From Candidatus Mnemosynella biddleae (lineage in GTDB: Archaea > Halobacteriota > Archaeoglobi > Mnemosynellales > Mnemosynellaceae), in NCBI GenBank assembly GCA_002011165.2, contig MTMI02000001.1, forward strand, positions 1-51,574: a stretch of 51,574 nucleotides of DNA, in the 5' to 3' direction. Of this stretch, positions 32,074 to 41,155 are shown one piece after another. Below the pieces are notes generated by a model. That model saw only the letters and a program-made list of their open reading frames with translations. It ran no database searches and had not been told where the DNA came from. Each line of letters starts with the position of its first letter. Within the stretch, counting starts at the first letter, position 1. The translations under genes and the position numbers were made by a program.

Positions 32074-32922
32074 ATGAACTACAGAGCATTTTGGGAGTTA
32101 ACGAGATTTGAACACGCTTTGATGTATGGTCTTGCAGTCCTAATTGGTGTTATTGTCTCAGGAGGGGAACTCCACAGAGTTCCCGTAATCTCAGGAATGC
32201 TTACCGCCATCTTTGTAGAAATGGGAACTTTCGCCCTGAACGATTACTTCGATCTTGAAGTAGATAGAAAAAATAAGAGGTATGATCGTCCCTTAGTAAG
32301 AGGAGATCTGAAACCTGAGATTGCACTCTATATTGGAATCATCACAATTCCACTTGGAATCCTCTTTTCTGCCTTCATAAACATCTATTGCTTTATTATA
32401 GCGCTTTTCGTAGCACTTCTCGGTATTTACTACGATGTAAAGATGAAGGATTTTGGGATTCCTGGAAATATTTACATAGCATTCAGCATGGCTATTCCTT
32501 TCCTTTTTGGAGGTTTCATCACACTTTCCATTACAAAACCTCTTCTCGTTCTCTTTGGGATGTCCTTTGTAGCAGGATTTGGAAGAGAGGTTATGAAAGG
32601 AGTTATGGACGTTGAAGGAGATGCATTGAGAGACGTGAAGTCAATCGCAAGAATTTTTGGAATTGAAAAAGCAAAAAAGATTGCTTCTATTTCCTATCTC
32701 ACTGCAATTGCCTTGAGTCCAATACCATTTTTCATTCAGGGTGCATACGAGAGGGATTTTCTTTATGCATTTTTTGTAATCATAGCGGACTTGATGTTTA
32801 TACACATAAGCTGGAAACTGATAAAAGAAGAAGGAATTGAAATAGTAAGAAAAATGAGGAAAAAATCACTTAAAGCAATTCTATCAGGATTGATTGGATT
32901 TCTGCTTGGAGCTTTAGTTTAG
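32074..32922 (+). CDS. Digeranylgeranylglyceryl phosphate synthase (UbiA family)
   Basis: A 282-residue polytopic prenyltransferase with eight or nine helices. It adds the second geranylgeranyl chain. The first Asp-rich motif is ALNDYFDLEVDRKNKRYDRPL and the second is VMKGVMDVEGDALRDVKSIA, the DxxxD sites that bind Mg-diphosphate. The position 4 bases after GGGP synthase strongly favours this reaction over other UbiA roles. It is the last gene of the aMBF1 run and overlaps the convergent gene by 4 bases. Confidence 0.93.
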   Translation: MNYRAFWELTRFEHALMYGLAVLIGVIVSGGELHRVPVISGMLTAIFVEMGTFALNDYFDLEVDRKNKRYDRPLVRGDLKPEIALYIGIITIPLGILFSAFINIYCFIIALFVALLGIYYDVKMKDFGIPGNIYIAFSMAIPFLFGGFITLSITKPLLVLFGMSFVAGFGREVMKGVMDVEGDALRDVKSIARIFGIEKAKKIASISYLTAIALSPIPFFIQGAYERDFLYAFFVIIADLMFIHISWKLIKEEGIEIVRKMRKKSLKAILSGLIGFLLGALV

Positions 32923-33776
32923 AGTCTCTGAAATCCTCCCCTCTGCCTCAGGATGAGAGCTATCACTACGACGACAGCTATAGCACCGATCGCTCCGTAG
33001 ATGATCATTTTGCTTCTCCAAGCTGAGGCCTCAGCTTTTTCTTTGGCTTCTACTGCATATTCATAAGCTCTTTTCGCAGAATCTATTGCATTTTTCGCAG
33101 CAAGATAAGCCGATCCAGAAGTGCCCGCATTGTATAGACTCTTCGCATTCTCCAAAAATTGCTCCGCATTCTGAAGTTCAGCCTCTGCTAATGAGGTGTC
33201 TCCTCCTGCTTTCTCCGCATCATTTATTGCATCTTTTGCTTTCTCTATTTCCATTTCTGCTGTTTGAATGGCTGTAAGAGCATCTGAAATATCACTACTA
33301 GTCACATAGCTTTTGATATCTACTACCTTGAGAGTTTCGTAATTTCCTCCATCATTAACAGTCTGAAGGATTTTAACAACAGTCACTTGAGTTCTCTTCG
33401 TCACAACAGGAGCCTTACCGCTGAGAACTACTGAAATCTTCTCGAATTCCTGATGGTCCACTTCTATTGTGAAGTCTTTCGAGCTTCTCGAGATGGTGTC
33501 CACTGGATTGTCCTCTTTATCCAGAAGCTGAACGGTCCAAGAAATTGGAGTTGCTAACCCAGTTTCAAAGGAAAGAGTGGAAGTACCCAGAGAGTCTGCT
33601 CCAGGACCTTCTTCAAGAGTTATTTTGATTGTAACATCCTGATCCATCTGAAGTTCTCCGATACTTGGGATGTTCTGCGGAATTAGAAACGGACTCTGAT
33701 CATAATCCTCAGCAATTGCGAAGAACGGTAAAAGCAAAAAAGAGAAAACAACTAAAATCGGTAGAAGTTTTTTCAT
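32919..33776 (-). CDS. Secreted coiled-coil protein with C-terminal membrane anchor
   Basis: A 285-residue protein with a signal peptide (LPILVVFSFLLLPFFAIAED), a beta-rich outer domain (about 25-160), an Ala/Glu/Lys-rich helical stalk (about 165-245, with repeats of the EIEKAKDAINDAEKAG type), and a single transmembrane helix (IIYGAIGAIAVVVVIALIL) followed by a short basic tail. It would stand outside the membrane on a coiled-coil stem. The start overlaps cetZ by 4 bases, so it is translated together with CetZ. No known family recognised; an envelope or cell-shape role is inferred from context only. Confidence 0.85.
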   Translation of the reverse strand: MKKLLPILVVFSFLLLPFFAIAEDYDQSPFLIPQNIPSIGELQMDQDVTIKITLEEGPGADSLGTSTLSFETGLATPISWTVQLLDKEDNPVDTISRSSKDFTIEVDHQEFEKISVVLSGKAPVVTKRTQVTVVKILQTVNDGGNYETLKVVDIKSYVTSSDISDALTAIQTAEMEIEKAKDAINDAEKAGGDTSLAEAELQNAEQFLENAKSLYNAGTSGSAYLAAKNAIDSAKRAYEYAVEAKEKAEASAWRSKMIIYGAIGAIAVVVVIALILRQRGGFQRL

Positions 33777-34969
33777 AGATCCTCACCCTCATCAATCAAA
33801 GGCTTCAGCTTGTCATCATCAAAAATGTCAACCAACTTCTCCTCTGTAGAGGTAGAAAGACTCTTTATGCTCTCCTGAGCTTCTATGGCTATTCTCTGCA
33901 ACTCTTTCAACCTTGGAATATCAGTAACTCCAGAAAATAGGACAACTGCAGCCACTGAATTTGCTCTTGGTATTGGATGATCTCCTCCTCTTACCTCCGT
34001 TCCTCTTATCAAGCTCTCAACCCAGAGTTTAGCTTTCTCTATACCCTTCCTATCAAGCTCCTCAGGAGGTCCAGCAAGAAGGACGAGAGCTCTTTCTGCA
34101 GTCCTCACATCACACTGAATAGTTAATCTTCCCATCACCGCTCTTCTAACGAGAGAGGTTACCCTTGTTGTTGTATCAAGAGACTCAAGGGAAGATCTCT
34201 CCTTCTTCCTTCCGAAAAGACCTCCAAATCCCAAACCTTTCTTTCTTCTCACTTCTTCAGACGCATAGCCAACTGCTGTTATTCCGCCACCTCTCAGAGT
34301 GTTTATTATCTCAGCACTGTCAACAACCATCTCTCCAACTTCAGAACTTCCAGAACTTCCAGCCTCTCCTGCGCCGATTAGAACAGAGAATCGCTTCACT
34401 ATTTCCTCATTCATGTATCTGTAAGCATCCTGAAGCGTTTCTCCTTCTCTCTTCCAAAGATCGTTATCAAAGAGGAATAGATTGTCCACCTCATTTATCA
34501 GAGTCTTAAGACTTCTTGCAGCATTTAGAGAATAGAGAGCACCCTCATCCTTTGCAGGAAGAATTCCAAGAGCATAAACCGGCTCTATGTAGAGCCTTCT
34601 CAATCTTCTTGCCAAAACAGGAGCCCCACCGGATCCTGTTCCCCCTCCGAGACCTGCTACTATAAGAAAAGCGTCAACCTCGTGGGTTCCTCTTTTATCG
34701 ATGGCACTTTGAATTGTGTAAATGTCCTCTGCAGCTACTTTGGCTCCAAGCTCATTATCAGCTCCAACTCCGTGGCCTTTCACGATGGATTGACCTATGA
34801 GCAATCGATCTTCCATCGGTATGTGCTTTAATCCAAGAAGATCAGACTTTGCAGTGTTTATGGCCAGTGCTCTTACTATGGCATTCTGCTTCGTCCTCTT
34901 GTCATATTCGACGAAAAGATCAACTATCTTGCCACCTGCTTGCCCAAAGCCAATCATAAATAACTTCAT
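33773..34969 (-). CDS. cetZ: CetZ tubulin-superfamily cytoskeletal protein
   Basis: A 398-residue tubulin/FtsZ-fold GTPase clearly of the CetZ group. MIGFGQAGGKIVD is the CetZ N-terminus, VKGHGVGADNELG follows, and AGLGGGTGSGGAPVLAR is the tubulin signature loop that binds GTP. The T7-like EGALYSLNAARSL helix and the C-terminal domain are complete, with an acidic tail. In haloarchaea CetZ governs cell shape and motility. It has its own promoter (35001-35010) and a GAGGAGTGG ribosome site, and it is preceded by a PRC-barrel gene and followed by a membrane-anchored secreted protein. Confidence 0.95.
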   Translation of the reverse strand: MKLFMIGFGQAGGKIVDLFVEYDKRTKQNAIVRALAINTAKSDLLGLKHIPMEDRLLIGQSIVKGHGVGADNELGAKVAAEDIYTIQSAIDKRGTHEVDAFLIVAGLGGGTGSGGAPVLARRLRRLYIEPVYALGILPAKDEGALYSLNAARSLKTLINEVDNLFLFDNDLWKREGETLQDAYRYMNEEIVKRFSVLIGAGEAGSSGSSEVGEMVVDSAEIINTLRGGGITAVGYASEEVRRKKGLGFGGLFGRKKERSSLESLDTTTRVTSLVRRAVMGRLTIQCDVRTAERALVLLAGPPEELDRKGIEKAKLWVESLIRGTEVRGGDHPIPRANSVAAVVLFSGVTDIPRLKELQRIAIEAQESIKSLSTSTEEKLVDIFDDDKLKPLIDEGEDL

Positions 34970-35000
34970 TCCACTCCTCCTCGAGCTTTTGCGTGACCGC

Positions 35001-35010
35001 TTTTATACTT
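35001..35010 (-). promoter_or_regulatory. Internal TATA box for cetZ
   Basis: On the minus strand AAGTATAAAA lies 32-41 bases before the cetZ ATG, within the 66-base gap after the PRC-barrel gene. It could give cetZ and its partner an independent or boosted transcript. Confidence 0.5.
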
Positions 35011-35035
35011 CATTTTCACCCAGCAGTATATTAAT

Positions 35036-35875
35036 CTATTCCTCATCCTCTATGATGATAGAATCAACATCCGGTAACTCCACATCTATAAATTCATAAA
35101 CTATCAAGTCACTGAAAACGTTCGAGAGGTGAAGCTTAGAAGGTTCTATTATAACTTTGTTTCCTACCCTCGTTAAAGCTGAAAGATCTGCATTCTCATA
35201 AGGCTTTACAACAATGTGATCAATTTTACCAGTTTTTTCATCGAAAACTACTTGTTGACATCTTCCGATAAGGCTTCCATCCTCATACACGATTTTCTTT
35301 CCCATCAACCACTTTCCAGAGATTGTGACATTCCAAAAATTCGTCTTCCTTTTTACTTCATGAAAGAGTTGATGAAGGAGGTATTCCTTTCTTGCAACCT
35401 GAGTGAGATCGTATCCTAAAAGTTTAGCAACTTCCTTGAAATCAACAACATCAGAAAGCAAAATGCGTTCACCTTCAATTGAGAAATCCTCAAAGATTGA
35501 GAAAATAAGACATTGGAGATATGCGAAAGGATAGTAAACGTAGTGTTTTCCATGTTCTTTTTTAGCAAATTCGTTTTCTGGATCAAGAAGAAAATCTCTA
35601 ACAGCCTTTCTCGAGACTTCAACAAGATGTTTTTTAATGAGAGAATTATCAACACTCGATAATACTTCAATTCCTGAGCCATGGGAATTCAGATCATCTA
35701 GAAAAACTCTTTGGAAAAGATAGGAAAGTCTTCTTTTTATTCTCTCGCTCATCGGAATCGCATATTTCATATAGTGTCTTAGAGTCTCTGTACTCATCGG
35801 CTCAACAAGGAAATTCCAAGGAAAAAGCGAACTTCCGTAATAGCTAAACGCCTTTTCGATGATCGGATTTACCAT
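35036..35875 (-). CDS. PRC-barrel domain protein of the cetZ operon
   Basis: A 279-residue protein with a helical N-terminal part (to about 185) without a recognised fold. It ends in a PRC-barrel (about 190-260), read from LMGKKIVYEDGSLIGRC through the VVFDEKTGKIDHIVVKP hairpin to the IIEPSKLHL strand. The last residues are acidic (DVDSIIIEDEE). PRC-barrel proteins such as CdpB bind SepF and anchor FtsZ in haloarchaeal division, so a link to a tubulin homolog is attractive. The ATG at 35875 is chosen for its AGGTGAG ribosome site; a frame from 35905 would overlap the preceding gene. Confidence 0.82.
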   Translation of the reverse strand: MVNPIIEKAFSYYGSSLFPWNFLVEPMSTETLRHYMKYAIPMSERIKRRLSYLFQRVFLDDLNSHGSGIEVLSSVDNSLIKKHLVEVSRKAVRDFLLDPENEFAKKEHGKHYVYYPFAYLQCLIFSIFEDFSIEGERILLSDVVDFKEVAKLLGYDLTQVARKEYLLHQLFHEVKRKTNFWNVTISGKWLMGKKIVYEDGSLIGRCQQVVFDEKTGKIDHIVVKPYENADLSALTRVGNKVIIEPSKLHLSNVFSDLIVYEFIDVELPDVDSIIIEDEE

Positions 35876-35879
35876 CGTC

Positions 35880-36788
35880 TCACCTTTTCTTCTTTCTAAG
35901 TTCAAAGGCTCTTCTCAATAAACTCCTTATAATAACTGCTTCTTCCTTTTCTTCCTCTTTGACTTTCTCCATCTCTGACTTGCATAACTTCCACGTCCAT
36001 AACCCAAAATCCGTGATAATATATCTATTTCCTTCCTTTTTTATCAGAGGGCATCTGTCCCTTATTACTGCCTCAAGTTCTCTCTGGAGCTGTTCATTGT
36101 AAGTCTGAGGCATGAGTTTCTTGTATTCTCTATCTTGGATATCACAAATGTTTTGTATCTCTTCAATGGTCAGAGAATTGTATTCCACAAGAATATTGTA
36201 TGCTATGAACGCGTATTCTTTGCTTCTTATATGACTCCAGCATTTATCCATCAAATTCTCAAGTCCGAGATGTTTTTTAGCAGCCTCTTGTATTACCATG
36301 AACATGTTGTTGATGATCTTGAAAGCTTCAAAATCCGAAGAGACGGGGACTTTTAAAATTACTCCTTCCGGTGAGATTCTTCCCTCTGAGAAATCAATGA
36401 AGGATGATGGCTCTCCAAAAAGAATATCGGTTATTGCCTCGAAGTACTTCTCAGAGAGAGGCTCATGCTCACTGTCATAAGGAAAAATATTATCCTTTCT
36501 TAAATCAAGATCTGGAGCAAAATTTGCAGTTAATTCGAGGAGTTCTCTTTTGATTTCATCTATCTCTGTGGTGGCTTTATCTATCTTCTCTTTCATAGCC
36601 TGAAGCTTTCTGTATTCCCCTTCTAGCTGTAATCTGAGTTTACCGCTTACACCTCGATTTAAAAGTTCCTCTATTTCCCTGAGCTGTTCATCAATATTAT
36701 TTCTACTAACACCCTTTCGATTCCAAAATAGCCAGTATTTCTCTGCATATAAGTTGGCTTTCTCGTTGAACGATGTCTCGTACATCAT
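35880..36788 (-). CDS. Unknown protein with N-terminal coiled coil, first gene of the cetZ operon
   Basis: A 302-residue soluble protein. Residues about 28-95 form a long charged helix pair (DEQLREIEELLNRG, then LQAMKEKIDKATTEIDEIKREL), the middle is mixed alpha/beta, and residues about 200-270 (NSLTIEEIQNICDI, then RYIITDFGLWTWKL) look like a winged-helix fold. The C-terminus is very basic (RRAFELRKKKR). No family recognised. It precedes the PRC-barrel gene by 4 bases. A minus-strand TATA-like block (36815-36830) lies near its paired ATGs at 36788/36785, so it heads the operon. Confidence 0.78.
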   Translation of the reverse strand: MMYETSFNEKANLYAEKYWLFWNRKGVSRNNIDEQLREIEELLNRGVSGKLRLQLEGEYRKLQAMKEKIDKATTEIDEIKRELLELTANFAPDLDLRKDNIFPYDSEHEPLSEKYFEAITDILFGEPSSFIDFSEGRISPEGVILKVPVSSDFEAFKIINNMFMVIQEAAKKHLGLENLMDKCWSHIRSKEYAFIAYNILVEYNSLTIEEIQNICDIQDREYKKLMPQTYNEQLQRELEAVIRDRCPLIKKEGNRYIITDFGLWTWKLCKSEMEKVKEEEKEEAVIIRSLLRRAFELRKKKR

Positions 36789-36870: not shown

Positions 36871-36895
36871 GGGAGATTATTCAATGATATTAACC

Positions 36896-37300
36896 ATGAG
36901 AAAAGTACTCGTCATGCTCATAATATTATCCTTTATGACATCTTTCGTGAGTGCTCAGGAGGAATATAGGATATCGATCAACTCCATTACCTTTTACATA
37001 AGCTCTCAGGAAATAAGCGTTGAAGTGAACTACAAAATGGAGAGCCTTACAGAGCTCTCCGTTCTGATGTTTGGAGATGCTCCAATAAAGAGAGATATTC
37101 AGAAGTTTTTTGGAATAGGGAATTTAACTTTCACAGAAGTAAATGAGACGAGTGCGAAATTCAATTTAGAACTGAGTGAGAAGGGAGTTCTTAAACCATT
37201 TGAGTTCAGCAAGGAGATCTCAGAGATTTCATTTGTCTTTGAAGATGGAACGAAGATAACTCTCCGTGACAGGAACGATACACCAACTGTTTTATTTTAA
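36896..37300 (+). CDS. Small secreted protein of unknown function
   Basis: A 134-residue protein with a signal peptide (RKVLVMLIILSFMTSFVSAQ) and a beta-rich mature domain of about 110 residues (strands such as SINSITFYI, ISVEVNYKM, AKFNLEL and ISEISFVF). There are no Cys and no second membrane helix, so it may be released or held by partners. The ATG at 36896 fits the TATA distance better than the one at 36884. It is divergent from the cetZ operon and overlaps the convergent Zn-ribbon gene by 9 bases. No family recognised. Confidence 0.75.
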   Translation: MRKVLVMLIILSFMTSFVSAQEEYRISINSITFYISSQEISVEVNYKMESLTELSVLMFGDAPIKRDIQKFFGIGNLTFTEVNETSAKFNLELSEKGVLKPFEFSKEISEISFVFEDGTKITLRDRNDTPTVLF

Positions 37301-37723
37301 CGAATTTTCTCCTTCAAGCTTCTTTTTAAAGATTGAAGGGAGATGTATGATGTAAGTTCCGTTTCCTCTAAGTGCCATTATAATCTCTTCTCTCTCAAAA
37401 AGAGCATTAAGATTGAGTTCGTATCTTCCCGGTTCCACTATGCGAATCGACTCCACATCATCGGGAGAGAGACCTTTTAGCTCCACCACCTTACCTTCTG
37501 GAGGGATCTCTTCTCCCTTTTTCATCTCTTCCTCAACTTTTGTTCTCCATTCTTTTTCCTTCTTCTTCACATATTCTGCAACCGTAACTTTCTCTGCCTC
37601 TTCTTTGCTTCTGAGATATAGGAATTTATTCCACCCGCACTCCGGACATCCGTGGAGAAGGACCTCAGAAGCTTCTTCATACACCTTTCCGCATTTAGTG
37701 CACATATGGGGCATATCACTCAT
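37292..37723 (-). CDS. oapC: OapC-like zinc-ribbon protein
   Basis: A 143-residue protein starting with a zinc ribbon, CTKCGKVYEEASEVLLHGCPECGW, split by the ribbon loop. A basic/acidic coiled stretch (about 45-75) and a beta-rich end (GRYELNLNALFEREEIIMALRG) follow. This is the layout of the archaeal Zn-ribbon proteins called OapC (origin-associated protein) in haloarchaea. It overlaps the DUF2073 gene by 8 bases. The function of the group is unknown. The symbol rests on family resemblance and the conserved gene order. Confidence 0.82.
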   Translation of the reverse strand: MSDMPHMCTKCGKVYEEASEVLLHGCPECGWNKFLYLRSKEEAEKVTVAEYVKKKEKEWRTKVEEEMKKGEEIPPEGKVVELKGLSPDDVESIRIVEPGRYELNLNALFEREEIIMALRGNGTYIIHLPSIFKKKLEGENSLK

Positions 37724-38081
37724 CCGCTTTACTCATTATTATAGCACTTATCAGCTTGTGATCCTTCTTTATCGTCTTCATTTTATTTGCAGGCCCTATA
37801 ATCGTCAATCTTGAGCGAGGGGTTTTCTTAAATATTTTTCCGAGAACACCACTCTTCTCGTGAGAGGGAGGATAACTCTCTATCTCTATTCCAGTGAAAT
37901 CTCCAGTTGCAATCTCCAGCATTGTTGTCTCTATGAGCTTTGCTTCTTCATCGGGAGAGAGACCGGATTCCAAAATCACGATCTTTCCCTTCTGAACCTC
38001 ATCGAGAATGAATCTAATCTTTTCCATTGTCGTCATTTCTCTCATGTGCTCTTGAGATATCATGTCTATCTGGATATCCAA
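37716..38081 (-). CDS. oapB: OapB-like DUF2073 protein
   Basis: A 121-residue protein of the DUF2073 type: MEKIRFILDEVQKGKIVILESGLSPDEEAKLIE at about 18-50, split by the turn, then FTGIEIESYPP and a C-terminal strand RLTIIGPANKMKTI. No enzyme motif is seen. It stands 12 bases after the Era-like GTPase and overlaps the Zn-ribbon gene, giving the three-gene order known from haloarchaeal origin regions. No Orc1/Cdc6 gene is in this window. Confidence 0.85.
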   Translation of the reverse strand: MDIQIDMISQEHMREMTTMEKIRFILDEVQKGKIVILESGLSPDEEAKLIETTMLEIATGDFTGIEIESYPPSHEKSGVLGKIFKKTPRSRLTIIGPANKMKTIKKDHKLISAIIMSKADE

Positions 38082-38093
38082 TCTTCTCCCTCC

Positions 38094-38738
38094 CTAACCG
38101 AAGTATTTTGCCATCGCCTCATATAACTTTTCCATATTCTCTCCCTTAAGTGCTGAAACGGGAACGACTGGATGCTGAGGAAAAGCACTTTTTATTCTCG
38201 TGGGAGACGCTCCAGGAAGATCGATCTTATTGGCCACTATGATAAGAGGGAGGCCTCTTGCTTCCATATTTCCAACTACGGTAACATTCACCTGAGTAAA
38301 TGGATTTTCTGTTGCATCCATAACTAGAAGAACTCCATCGAGATCATTCAACCACTTTATGGCTTCTATGACGCCCTCAGTTGCTTCTTTTGCCCTTTTC
38401 CTCGCCTCTTCCTCAGAGAGACCATGATGAAGAAAATCGTGAAAATCAATCTTCGTTGCTAAACCCGGCATATCAACGATATCAAGAGTTAAAGATCCTC
38501 CATTTATTTTTATTTTCACCTTTCCTTTCCTCTTCGCCCTTCTGGTCTCATGAGGTATCTCCGAGACCCCATTTAAAAGATCTCTGACGCTCCACTCTGC
38601 TTCAGCTCCCCAGTCCACAATGATTCTGTTGGCGAGAGTTGTCTTTCCCGCATTGGGTGGACCATAGATCCCTATTTTTACGTTGCCCTTTTTCAGCAGT
38701 CTTCTGAACCATCTCTTTATGCCATCTATGAAACTCAT
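38094..38738 (-). CDS. oapA: OapA-like Era-type GTPase
   Basis: A 214-residue small GTPase. G1 is IYGPPNAGKTTLANR, G3 is IVDMPGLATK, G4 is VANKIDLPG and G5 is VSALKGEN, all intact. The N-terminus is basic and amphipathic (FIDGIKRWFRRLLKKG), which could touch membrane or RNA. The Era KH domain is absent, as in archaeal OapA. First gene of the three-gene operon, divergent from the CBS gene array. A role in ribosome assembly or replication has been proposed for such proteins, but nothing here decides it. Confidence 0.88.
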   Translation of the reverse strand: MSFIDGIKRWFRRLLKKGNVKIGIYGPPNAGKTTLANRIIVDWGAEAEWSVRDLLNGVSEIPHETRRAKRKGKVKIKINGGSLTLDIVDMPGLATKIDFHDFLHHGLSEEEARKRAKEATEGVIEAIKWLNDLDGVLLVMDATENPFTQVNVTVVGNMEARGLPLIIVANKIDLPGASPTRIKSAFPQHPVVPVSALKGENMEKLYEAMAKYFG

Positions 38739-38827: not shown

Positions 38828-38863
38828 CAATACTCCCAACCTATCTCTCGCCCGGTGAGGGAG

Positions 38864-39424
38864 ATGGAAGGAAGAGTTCCAATCCGTGAGGTCATGACGA
38901 GAACTGTAGTCAGTGCCCCTCCAGAGATGGATCTTGTTAGCGCTGCCAGAGAGATGACAAAGAGAAAAGTAGGAAGCATAGTGATAACCGAAAACGGAAG
39001 TCCTGTAGGAATTGTTACTGAAAGAGATATCGTAACCAAAGTCATTGCTACTGGAAAAAATCCTTCTGAGGTGAGGTTAAAGGATATCATGAGTTCTCCG
39101 CTCATTACAATTTCTCCAAATGAAGATGTACTGGAAGCTGCAAAGCTTATGGTGAGAAATGATATCAGGAGACTTCCAGTTGTAGAACGTGGAGAACTTG
39201 TTGGTATAATTACAGACACAGATATCATAGCGATTTCAGCAGAAATGGGAGAAATAATATCCTCACTTATGGAGATTAATAGAGAGCCTCCCCTCATAGA
39301 AGGAGAGGAACTTCAACAAGGTATTTGCGAATCCTGTGGAAGTTTTTCAGAAAAACTGAAGTTTGTTTCTGGTATGCTTCTCTGCGAGAGTTGCAGAGAG
39401 GAGAAGGAGGAGGAAGAGGAGTAA
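38864..39424 (+). CDS. CBS-pair protein with C-terminal zinc ribbon (array member 1)
   Basis: A 186-residue protein: CBS1 (VMTRTVVSAPPEMDLVSAAREM to GIVTERDIVTKV) and CBS2 (IMSSPLITISPNEDVLEAAKLM, split at its loop, to GIITDTDIIAIS), then a zinc ribbon CESCGSFSEKLKFVSGMLLC and an all-acidic tail. CBS pairs bind adenosine nucleotides such as AMP, ATP or SAM; the ribbon suggests binding to nucleic acid or protein. The ATG at 38864 follows GGTGAGG; a GTG at 38855 falls inside that site. First gene of a five-gene CBS run ending in an RNA ligase. Confidence 0.88.
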   Translation: MEGRVPIREVMTRTVVSAPPEMDLVSAAREMTKRKVGSIVITENGSPVGIVTERDIVTKVIATGKNPSEVRLKDIMSSPLITISPNEDVLEAAKLMVRNDIRRLPVVERGELVGIITDTDIIAISAEMGEIISSLMEINREPPLIEGEELQQGICESCGSFSEKLKFVSGMLLCESCREEKEEEEE

Positions 39425-39437
39425 ACTGGTGATTTTT

Positions 39438-40217
39438 ATGAGAGTCGAAGAGATAATGTCCCGAGAATTTACGGTGATAAAGGAAGATGAATACGTGACG
39501 AAAGTGAGAAAAATAATGAGAGAGAGTGAGGCGAGAGCTCTCCCAGTGGTGAACGAAAAGGGGCATCTTCTTGGAATCATCACTGAATCCGATGTTCTTA
39601 GGGTTACTTCAACGAAATCCAACGTGACAGTTGATGGTTTCATAAAAGAGGTTCCTCCAATTTATCCTTTTACCGAGATTAGAGACTCAGCTTTAAAAAT
39701 TGTGGAGAGTGGAGAGGTGGAACTTCCGGTAACAAAATCAGAGGAGGATCCAGAAGTTGTTGGAGTTATATCAGTGAAAGATATCTTCAACGCTCTGGAA
39801 GAGAGAGAATTAAATAAAAGGATTTCCGAGATTATGACAGAAGATGTTGTCACGTGTTCTCCAGAGGATCCAATTTCAAAAGTCTGGAACAATATAATCG
39901 AATATGGATACACAGGATTTCCGGTAGTGAGAGACAAAAAGGTTGTTGGAATCATCACGAGAAGAGATCTTCTGAAATACGGGAGTATTAGAATAGGAAG
40001 AGAGGATGAGAGGGGTGGAAGATTGGCACACTCCCCAAAGGTTGAGAGAGCCATGACGTCTCCCGTTCAAACTATATCTCCTGAGAGTTCAGTTAAAGAC
40101 GCTCTCAAAATAATGAGAAAGTTGAACATAGGAAGGCTCCCGGTGGTTGATAAAAAAAAGAGTCTTCTCGGAATTGTAGACAGGTATGATATCATAAAAT
40201 CCTATTTCGAGGTGTGA
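39438..40217 (+). CDS. Four-CBS-domain protein (array member 2)
   Basis: A 259-residue protein built only of CBS motifs: about residues 1-60 (EIMSREFTVIKEDEYVTKV), 62-125 (a degenerate motif with IYPFTEIRDSALKI), 128-185 (IMTEDVVTCSPEDPISKV) and 200-258 (AMTSPVQTISPESSVKDALK). Each ends in the GIxT/VxxxD ligand-loop pattern. No enzyme domain is attached. The frame is open to 39363, but the ATG at 39438 with GGTGA upstream is where the first CBS motif begins. Likely a nucleotide-sensing scaffold. Confidence 0.88.
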   Translation: MRVEEIMSREFTVIKEDEYVTKVRKIMRESEARALPVVNEKGHLLGIITESDVLRVTSTKSNVTVDGFIKEVPPIYPFTEIRDSALKIVESGEVELPVTKSEEDPEVVGVISVKDIFNALEERELNKRISEIMTEDVVTCSPEDPISKVWNNIIEYGYTGFPVVRDKKVVGIITRRDLLKYGSIRIGREDERGGRLAHSPKVERAMTSPVQTISPESSVKDALKIMRKLNIGRLPVVDKKKSLLGIVDRYDIIKSYFEV

Positions 40218-40219
40218 AA

Positions 40220-41155
40220 ATGAAGAGATACTTCCCGGGAGAGAGGAAAGTAGATCCCTCAAGCACTGCACCGATGGATAGAGGCCCGGTGGAATTCAAA
40301 TCGAGAATCTCAGAGCATCCCGGAGACATTATGAAAATTGCAACGAAGAACGTCGTGAGCGTTCCTCCCACAACAACCATTATGGGTGCGGCTAAAACAA
40401 TGACGAAATACGGCTTCAGAAGGCTCCCGATAGTGGATGCAGGTTCTAGAAGACTTATGGGAATGGTAACCTCAATGGACATAATAGACTTTTTCGGAGG
40501 AGGAAATAGATACAATCTAGTGAAAAACAAATACGGAGGAAATCTTTTAGCTGCGATAAACGAAGAGGTTCGCGAAATTATGGAAGAGAATGTAATTTAC
40601 ATAACAGAGGATTATTCCATAAAAGAGGCGTTGAAGACTCTGAAAGAAAGAAACATCGGTGCTCTTCCTATAGTGAATGATGAGGAACAGCTTACAGGGA
40701 TCGTTTCTGAAAAGGATTTCGTTTTCATGGTGTCAGAAGAAGAGAAGCTCGATATTTTCGTTCATGAGTGTATGACAAAAGGGGTGAGAACTGCACCTCC
40801 TTCAATGACAATAGAGAGAGCTTCGAAGGAGATGATCTCGAAAGGTTTCAGAAGACTTCCTGTAGTTGAAGATAATATTCTCATAGGAATTGTTACTGCA
40901 TCAGATATAGTCAGATATCTCAGCACGGGAGAGGCTTTCTCGAAACTCGTAACAGGTAACGTGCAGGAAGCTCTTAATGTTCCCATCTCACACATAATGT
41001 CGAGAAATGTTGTTTTCACATCTTCTGACGTTGATCTTGCGAAAGTAGCGAGAATAATGATAAAAAACGACCTTGGAGCCCTTCCGGTAATAGATGGAGA
41101 TGATCTCGTGGGAATAATCACGGAGAGAGATTTCATAAAGGCGATGAAGGTGTGA
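40220..41155 (+). CDS. Four-CBS-domain protein (array member 3)
   Basis: A 311-residue protein. A basic N-terminal extension (KRYFPGERKVDPSSTAPMDRG) is followed by four CBS motifs, recognisable by GFRRLPIVDAG, NIGALPIVNDE, GFRRLPVVEDN and DLGALPVIDGD, each followed by a G(I/M)VxxxD turn. The first pair carries an insertion (FFGGGNRYNLVKNKYGG). The ATG at 40220 follows GAGGTG, which overlaps the stop of the previous gene. No catalytic domain. Similarity between the four motifs suggests internal duplication. Confidence 0.88.
   Translation: MKRYFPGERKVDPSSTAPMDRGPVEFKSRISEHPGDIMKIATKNVVSVPPTTTIMGAAKTMTKYGFRRLPIVDAGSRRLMGMVTSMDIIDFFGGGNRYNLVKNKYGGNLLAAINEEVREIMEENVIYITEDYSIKEALKTLKERNIGALPIVNDEEQLTGIVSEKDFVFMVSEEEKLDIFVHECMTKGVRTAPPSMTIERASKEMISKGFRRLPVVEDNILIGIVTASDIVRYLSTGEAFSKLVTGNVQEALNVPISHIMSRNVVFTSSDVDLAKVARIMIKNDLGALPVIDGDDLVGIITERDFIKAMKV

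Follow-up and report, generated by a model that had tools for sequence, protein, structure and literature searches.

A candidate trans-envelope partner of CetZ1-type filaments encoded directly behind cetZ across an archaeal phylum

Background

In haloarchaea, rod formation and motility are under the control of CetZ1, a protein of the tubulin superfamily. In Haloferax volcanii it is associated with the cell envelope, an association that has been termed 'loose', and it is the most abundant protein of the vesicles of this organism (PMC10927574). A published analysis of cetZ neighbourhoods, in its available part, places nolA upstream of cetZ1 and reports few similarities among the cetZ regions of Archaeoglobales, Methanomicrobiales and Methanosarcinales; a downstream membrane protein is not mentioned in that part (PMC9856176). 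Here we analyse a stretch of 51,574 nucleotides (nt) from contig MTMI02000001.1 in the 1.5-Mb genome of Candidatus Mnemosynella biddleae, henceforth the window, in which cetZ is followed immediately by the gene for an exported single-pass membrane protein, henceforth the partner. In the openly searchable literature no membrane partner of CetZ1 is named and no description of the cetZ-partner pair was found, although absence there is no proof of novelty.

Some described systems offer useful comparisons. RodZ for MreB and ZipA for FtsZ are, by general knowledge, single-pass membrane proteins dedicated to one cytoskeletal polymer, as the partner would be; the partner differs from both in that its predicted topology is type I, its outer domain is folded and only about 9 of its residues would lie in the cytosol, and no sequence relation to RodZ or ZipA was found in Pfam and PDB profile searches. 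SepF, the archaeal anchor of FtsZ, has a role similar to the one proposed here in linking a tubulin-family polymer to the membrane, but it is a separate protein encoded elsewhere in the host genome.

Results and Discussion

The cetZ-partner pair is conserved across most of the phylum

The two central genes of the locus and their junction are as follows.

33773..34969, minus strand: cetZ, encoding a CetZ1-type tubulin-superfamily GTPase of 398 amino acids (aa), assigned by PF21011/PF00091 and PDB 4b46
32919..33776, minus strand: the exported single-pass membrane partner, 285 aa, an open reading frame (ORF) with AlphaFold 2 (AF2) model m5ff983625f80 and orthologues behind cetZ phylum-wide
33773..33776, minus strand: ATGA, in which the cetZ stop (TGA) overlaps the partner start (ATG) by 4 nt, the overlap that the original prediction had pointed out

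The window CetZ combines a tubulin/FtsZ GTPase domain (PF00091, E=2e-33) with the CetZ-type C-terminal domain (PF21011 CetZ_C, E=1.5e-68). Its best PDB match is 4b46 (E=1e-146), with 492 bits as against 275 bits for 4b45; we take 4b46 to be H. volcanii CetZ1 and 4b45 to be a CetZ2, and by its sequence the protein is thus of the CetZ1 type, nearer CetZ1 than CetZ2.

The distribution of the pair was followed in a class sample of 59 genomes, a phylum sample of 394 genomes and a sample of 80 CetZ loci from named organisms, the last covering ANME-1/Methanophagales, Methanoculleus, Methanoregula, Methanocalculus, Methanocorpusculum, Archaeoglobales and haloarchaea, including Haloferax denitrificans, H. 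profundi, Haloarcula and Halorussus. Within the class, 58 of the 59 genomes contain a CetZ-family match and 54 a partner recognized by its profile, unlinked cases included. All three families of the class, and several of its genera, have the partner directly behind cetZ, and in other genera it has moved elsewhere and yet been kept. Of the 394 genomes of the phylum sample the partner profile hit 158, and coordinate comparison showed that the strong matches outside the class adjoin cetZ immediately downstream. The loci examined have the same partner architecture behind cetZ, with a spacing of -56 to +19 nt. A filter for a signal peptide plus a C-terminal transmembrane segment accepted 49/80 genes behind cetZ in the named sample, as against 1/511 other genes of at least 180 aa in the same loci. 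The profile added 7 partners whose ORFs are longer, fused or cut (L215, L238, L241, L242, L262, L269 and L276), so that a partner stands behind cetZ in 56 of 78 usable named loci, two contigs ending at cetZ.

The pair is therefore adjacent across most of the phylum, in Archaeoglobi, Methanomicrobia, ANME-1-type lineages and many haloarchaea, including the cetZ1 of Haloferax; the partner is genetically tied to the CetZ polymer gene, and the core unit consists of two genes, cetZ and the gene of the exported protein. Gene order does break in some genera, as it would if the adjacency had no function and were due to chance or to the inertia of gene order. We find this explanation scarcely credible, since the same neighbour recurs across many families though most other neighbours change, and since usually one partner copy per class genome is retained even where it is unlinked. 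One apparent natural fusion of CetZ and partner, a 602 aa frame in a haloarchaeal metagenome-assembled genome (L241:4764-6572), lacks both the CetZ tail and the signal-peptide start at its junction and is hence more probably an indel or assembly error.

Among haloarchaea, the cetZ genes of the pairs are orthologues of CetZ1 (713 bits to 4b46), and a targeted search of 26 haloarchaeal genomes recovered exactly one partner in 12. In a Haloferax-like genus with a CetZ1 that shares 96-99% identity with PDB 4b46, a 264 aa partner ending in YDKLG was present in 10/10 loci examined, in each of which it overlaps cetZ by 32 nt; the named loci of H. denitrificans and H. profundi agree with this arrangement.

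Architecture of the partner

The partner begins with a hydrophobic N-terminus typical of a signal peptide and ends with a single hydrophobic helix followed by a basic tail of 9 residues. The following segments were delineated.

33711..33776, minus strand: signal peptide, approximately residues 1-22, from the hydrophobic N-terminus
33300..33686, minus strand: extracellular beta-sandwich domain, residues 31-159, from AF2 secondary structure and confidence, with generic beta-sandwich matches only
32949..33014, minus strand: C-terminal membrane helix, residues ~255-276, continuing helix 3 of the bundle, from hydropathy and the AF2 helix 223-280
32922..32948, minus strand: cytosolic tail RQRGGFQRL, a variant of [WFY]D[EKR]L[GKR], from alignments and tail statistics

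The AF2 model, built from a 40-row alignment with a mean predicted local distance difference test score (pLDDT) of 89.9, shows a beta-sandwich (about residues 31-159) followed by a three-helix bundle, the last helix of which runs on as the membrane helix. The C-terminal anchor of the original prediction is thus borne out, whereas its 'helical stalk' is only partly apt because the model has a beta-sandwich and a bundle that merges with the membrane helix; the helical portions are longer in the homologues from Archaeoglobaceae and Methanomicrobia. Profile searches of Pfam, NCBIfam and PDB with the partner returned coiled-coil look-alikes only, and a fold search gave only generic beta-sandwich matches, with template modelling scores (TM-scores) of <=0.31 on the query. 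These features suggest a type-I topology, in which the folded domain would lie outside the cell and the short tail in the cytosol. In several Archaeoglobi (L109-L114, L120 and L124) a second, divergent paralogue, mostly ending in DKW, DVW or EKW, comes after the unlinked partner gene.

A conserved tail motif, nearly unique to the partner family

An end of the form [WFY]D[EKR]L[GKR] was seen in 91/120 distinct partner homologues. All listed full-length primary partner copies of the class end in [WF]DEL[KR], although full-length identity to the reference row of the class alignment is for the most part as low as 20-41%, and the tail is also kept in class copies that are unlinked from cetZ. The window protein (GGFQRL) and that of its congener (GSFRRL) have variants that align with the RWERL/RWGRL of other lineages. 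Only 2/1385 other ORFs carried the motif, and both proved to be missed partners behind cetZ (L238 and L276); once these were removed the count was 0/1383. As far as sequence comparison can tell, the motif is nearly unique to the partner family.

This bears on the possibility that the partner is an adhesin-like surface protein whose tail serves as a signal for membrane insertion, sorting or processing and whose linkage to cetZ arises from CetZ-guided placement of synthesis or secretion. Short basic tails behind a membrane helix are, by general knowledge, common topology signals, and the outer domain resembles generic beta-sandwich adhesins, albeit at a low TM-score. However, the absence of the motif from all 1383 other ORFs is unlike a general sorting signal, and the linkage is to cetZ and not to secretion genes, so that we regard such a role as improbable.

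A proposed link between CetZ filaments and the envelope

We think it somewhat more probable than not that the partner is a dedicated trans-envelope receptor or anchor that tethers CetZ1-type filaments through a CetZ-facing tail. In this core, CetZ would form the tubulin-like polymer of the cytosol, and the type-I membrane protein dedicated to it would have its folded domain outside. The basic tail, with its conserved aromatic-acidic-leucine end, would attach to CetZ1-type filaments, directly or by way of a factor on them, and would thereby hold the polymer at the membrane; the outer domain may contact the S-layer or another surface structure. There is, in our estimate, a little better than an even chance that these proteins are CetZ receptors spanning the envelope, with an aromatic-D-x-L end, and make up a family that extends across the phylum and has not been described before; in ANME-1-type archaea a PRC-barrel/coiled-coil pair would join them. 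The trans-envelope cytoskeletal module of the original prediction is in keeping with the conserved linkage and the nearly unique tail motif; the contact between CetZ and its neighbour that it implied did not appear in the structural model described below.

Several observations weigh against tethering by the tail. The ANME-1-type partners end in RGIF/RGIY, without the motif. In the targeted search of haloarchaea, no partner was detectable genome-wide in six genomes of family f20 and six of genus g47 that have CetZ, which we take to be Natrialbaceae-like and Halorubrum-like, respectively, nor in two others. The named loci without a partner behind cetZ likewise include Natrialbales (Natrinema and Natronorubrum) and Halorubrum, and in several partner-less named loci the gene following cetZ1 is one that we presume to be cofC-like. 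These lineages keep CetZ1 without the partner, which is thus not obligatory. The acidic C-terminus of CetZ is conserved as ..PLF(E) or ..SLF in 100/102 paired loci, but it is unchanged in named relatives that lack the partner neighbour, and accordingly it is not explained by the partner alone. Lastly, an AF2 model of a CetZ/partner read-through (locus L227, with the in-frame TGA read as G purely as a computational device) gave a tail pLDDT <50 and no docking; it is weak evidence, given the shallow alignment and a predicted template modelling score (pTM) of 0.46.

The lack of contact in this model, the lineages that keep CetZ1 without a partner and the loss of linkage in several Archaeoglobi would all suit a different account, in which the partner is co-transcribed with cetZ and serves the same envelope or cell-shape process without touching CetZ, its tail binding some other factor of the cytosol, for instance a MinD, a PRC protein or a glycosylation enzyme. 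Against it stand the near-uniqueness of the tail to the partner family and the linkage with CetZ1-type genes across many families but not with the FtsZ genes of the host genome: cetZ is one of three tubulin-superfamily genes there, and neither of the other two, the FtsZ-type FtsZ1 and FtsZ2, has an exported-partner-like neighbour. On balance we consider a role without contact to be rather unlikely.

If the tethering proposal is right, the partner would be what has so far been missing between the tubulin-like cytoskeleton of archaea and their envelope, and it is present in Haloferax, a genetic model genus. As it is encoded immediately behind cetZ1 in Haloferax, the question is directly testable by existing genetics, and the partner-less Natrialbaceae- and Halorubrum-like lineages provide a natural comparison.

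Lineage-specific additions upstream of cetZ

In the window the pair belongs to a run of four ORFs, all on the minus strand, of 302 aa, 279 aa, 398 aa (CetZ) and 285 aa in transcription order; all four genes of the original prediction, namely those for a coiled-coil/winged-helix-like protein, a PRC-barrel protein, CetZ and a signal-peptide membrane protein, are thus present as ORFs. The first two are separated by 4 nt, and 66 nt lie between the 279 aa gene and cetZ.

35880..36788, minus strand: operon gene 1, a coiled-coil and C-terminal winged-helix-like protein of 302 aa (P0004), an ORF with homologues in the same place in 17 other loci
35036..35875, minus strand: a protein of 279 aa (P0003) that joins a novel N-terminal domain to a C-terminal PRC barrel, from PF05239 in homologues and profile matches to PDB 8qzo/8onw, adjoining cetZ upstream in many genomes
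34999..35007, minus strand: a TATA-box-like tataaaagc inside the 66-nt gap preceding cetZ, read from the sequence, which is possibly a separate promoter for cetZ and the membrane partner

The PRC barrel is borderline in the window protein itself (PF05239, E=4e-4, 20.7 bits, just below the cut-off of 21.2), but PF05239 matched 15/15 aligned homologues, and the profile of the family matches the solved PRC-barrel proteins 8qzo (9e-14) and 8onw, so that this assignment holds. It shares the PRC-barrel domain with the division proteins CdpB1/CdpB2, but unlike them it is 279 aa long, has an extra N-terminal domain (motifs FPWNF and PFAxxQC) and is linked to cetZ and not to ftsZ/sepF. It is not of the small stand-alone type, which the genome encodes separately in two frames of 87 and 95 aa. 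The 302 aa protein had no family match in Pfam, NCBIfam or PDB, and the winged-helix likeness once claimed for it is weak; alignments of both it and the PRC protein contain conserved motifs.

Profile searches found a 302 aa-like gene, the PRC gene and cetZ in this order in 16 ANME-1-type loci besides the window and its congener; these include six named ANME-1/Methanophagales contigs (L204 and L206-L210) and several other families. The partner then follows cetZ in 15 of the 16, the sole exception, without a partner found behind cetZ, being L171. The four genes therefore stay together well beyond the window, contrary to the dispersal in related genomes that would have refuted the original prediction, and the wider search of the phylum corrected an early impression that the PRC and coiled-coil genes are private to its family. 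Full-length relatives of the PRC protein outside the class sit directly upstream of cetZ. Three further relatives (G129:C10, G182:C18 and G306:C114) are on contigs other than that of the CetZ1-type gene, and thus the additional genes may also exist unlinked.

Neither of the two genes adjoins cetZ in the examined Archaeoglobaceae, Methanomicrobia and haloarchaea, and hence they are lineage-specific additions to a smaller core. The PRC protein had been put forward as the adaptor of the module; since most lineages have the cetZ-partner pair without it, it is not a required one. In the window's family and the ANME-1-type archaea these two cytosolic proteins, whose genes stand in one run with cetZ, might add an extra layer on the filament as adaptor or regulator. 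The four-gene version thereby offers a defined candidate cell-shape module for ANME-1-type archaea, in which genetic work is difficult.

The window CetZ is 68-71% identical to several ANME-1-type CetZs and about 59-60% identical to those of its own class. In the CetZ tree, a clade of the window lineage with the rest of its class was rejected (approximately unbiased test, p=0.0007) and the lineage was placed among ANME-1-type lineages, while for a clade of all four-gene lineages the test went no further than a failure to reject (p=0.08). Either transfer or differential loss may lie behind this placement.

Neighbouring genes

Just upstream of the CetZ operon, at 37292-38738 on the minus strand, the window encodes OapC, OapB and an Era-like GTPase of the OapA/ArvA type, an arrangement kept in the congener (L039). 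ArvA is a driver of haloarchaeal vesicle formation (PMC10927574). A link of these genes to cetZ was considered and set aside, as the adjacency is confined to the window and its congener, and one other locus has the genes at a distance of about 6 kb. The gene of a small signal-peptide protein of no known family lies at 36884-37300 on the plus strand, in the interval from the oap genes to the CetZ operon; the protein has a homologue in L039. Three tandem genes at 38855-41155 on the plus strand appear by eye to be CBS-domain-like.

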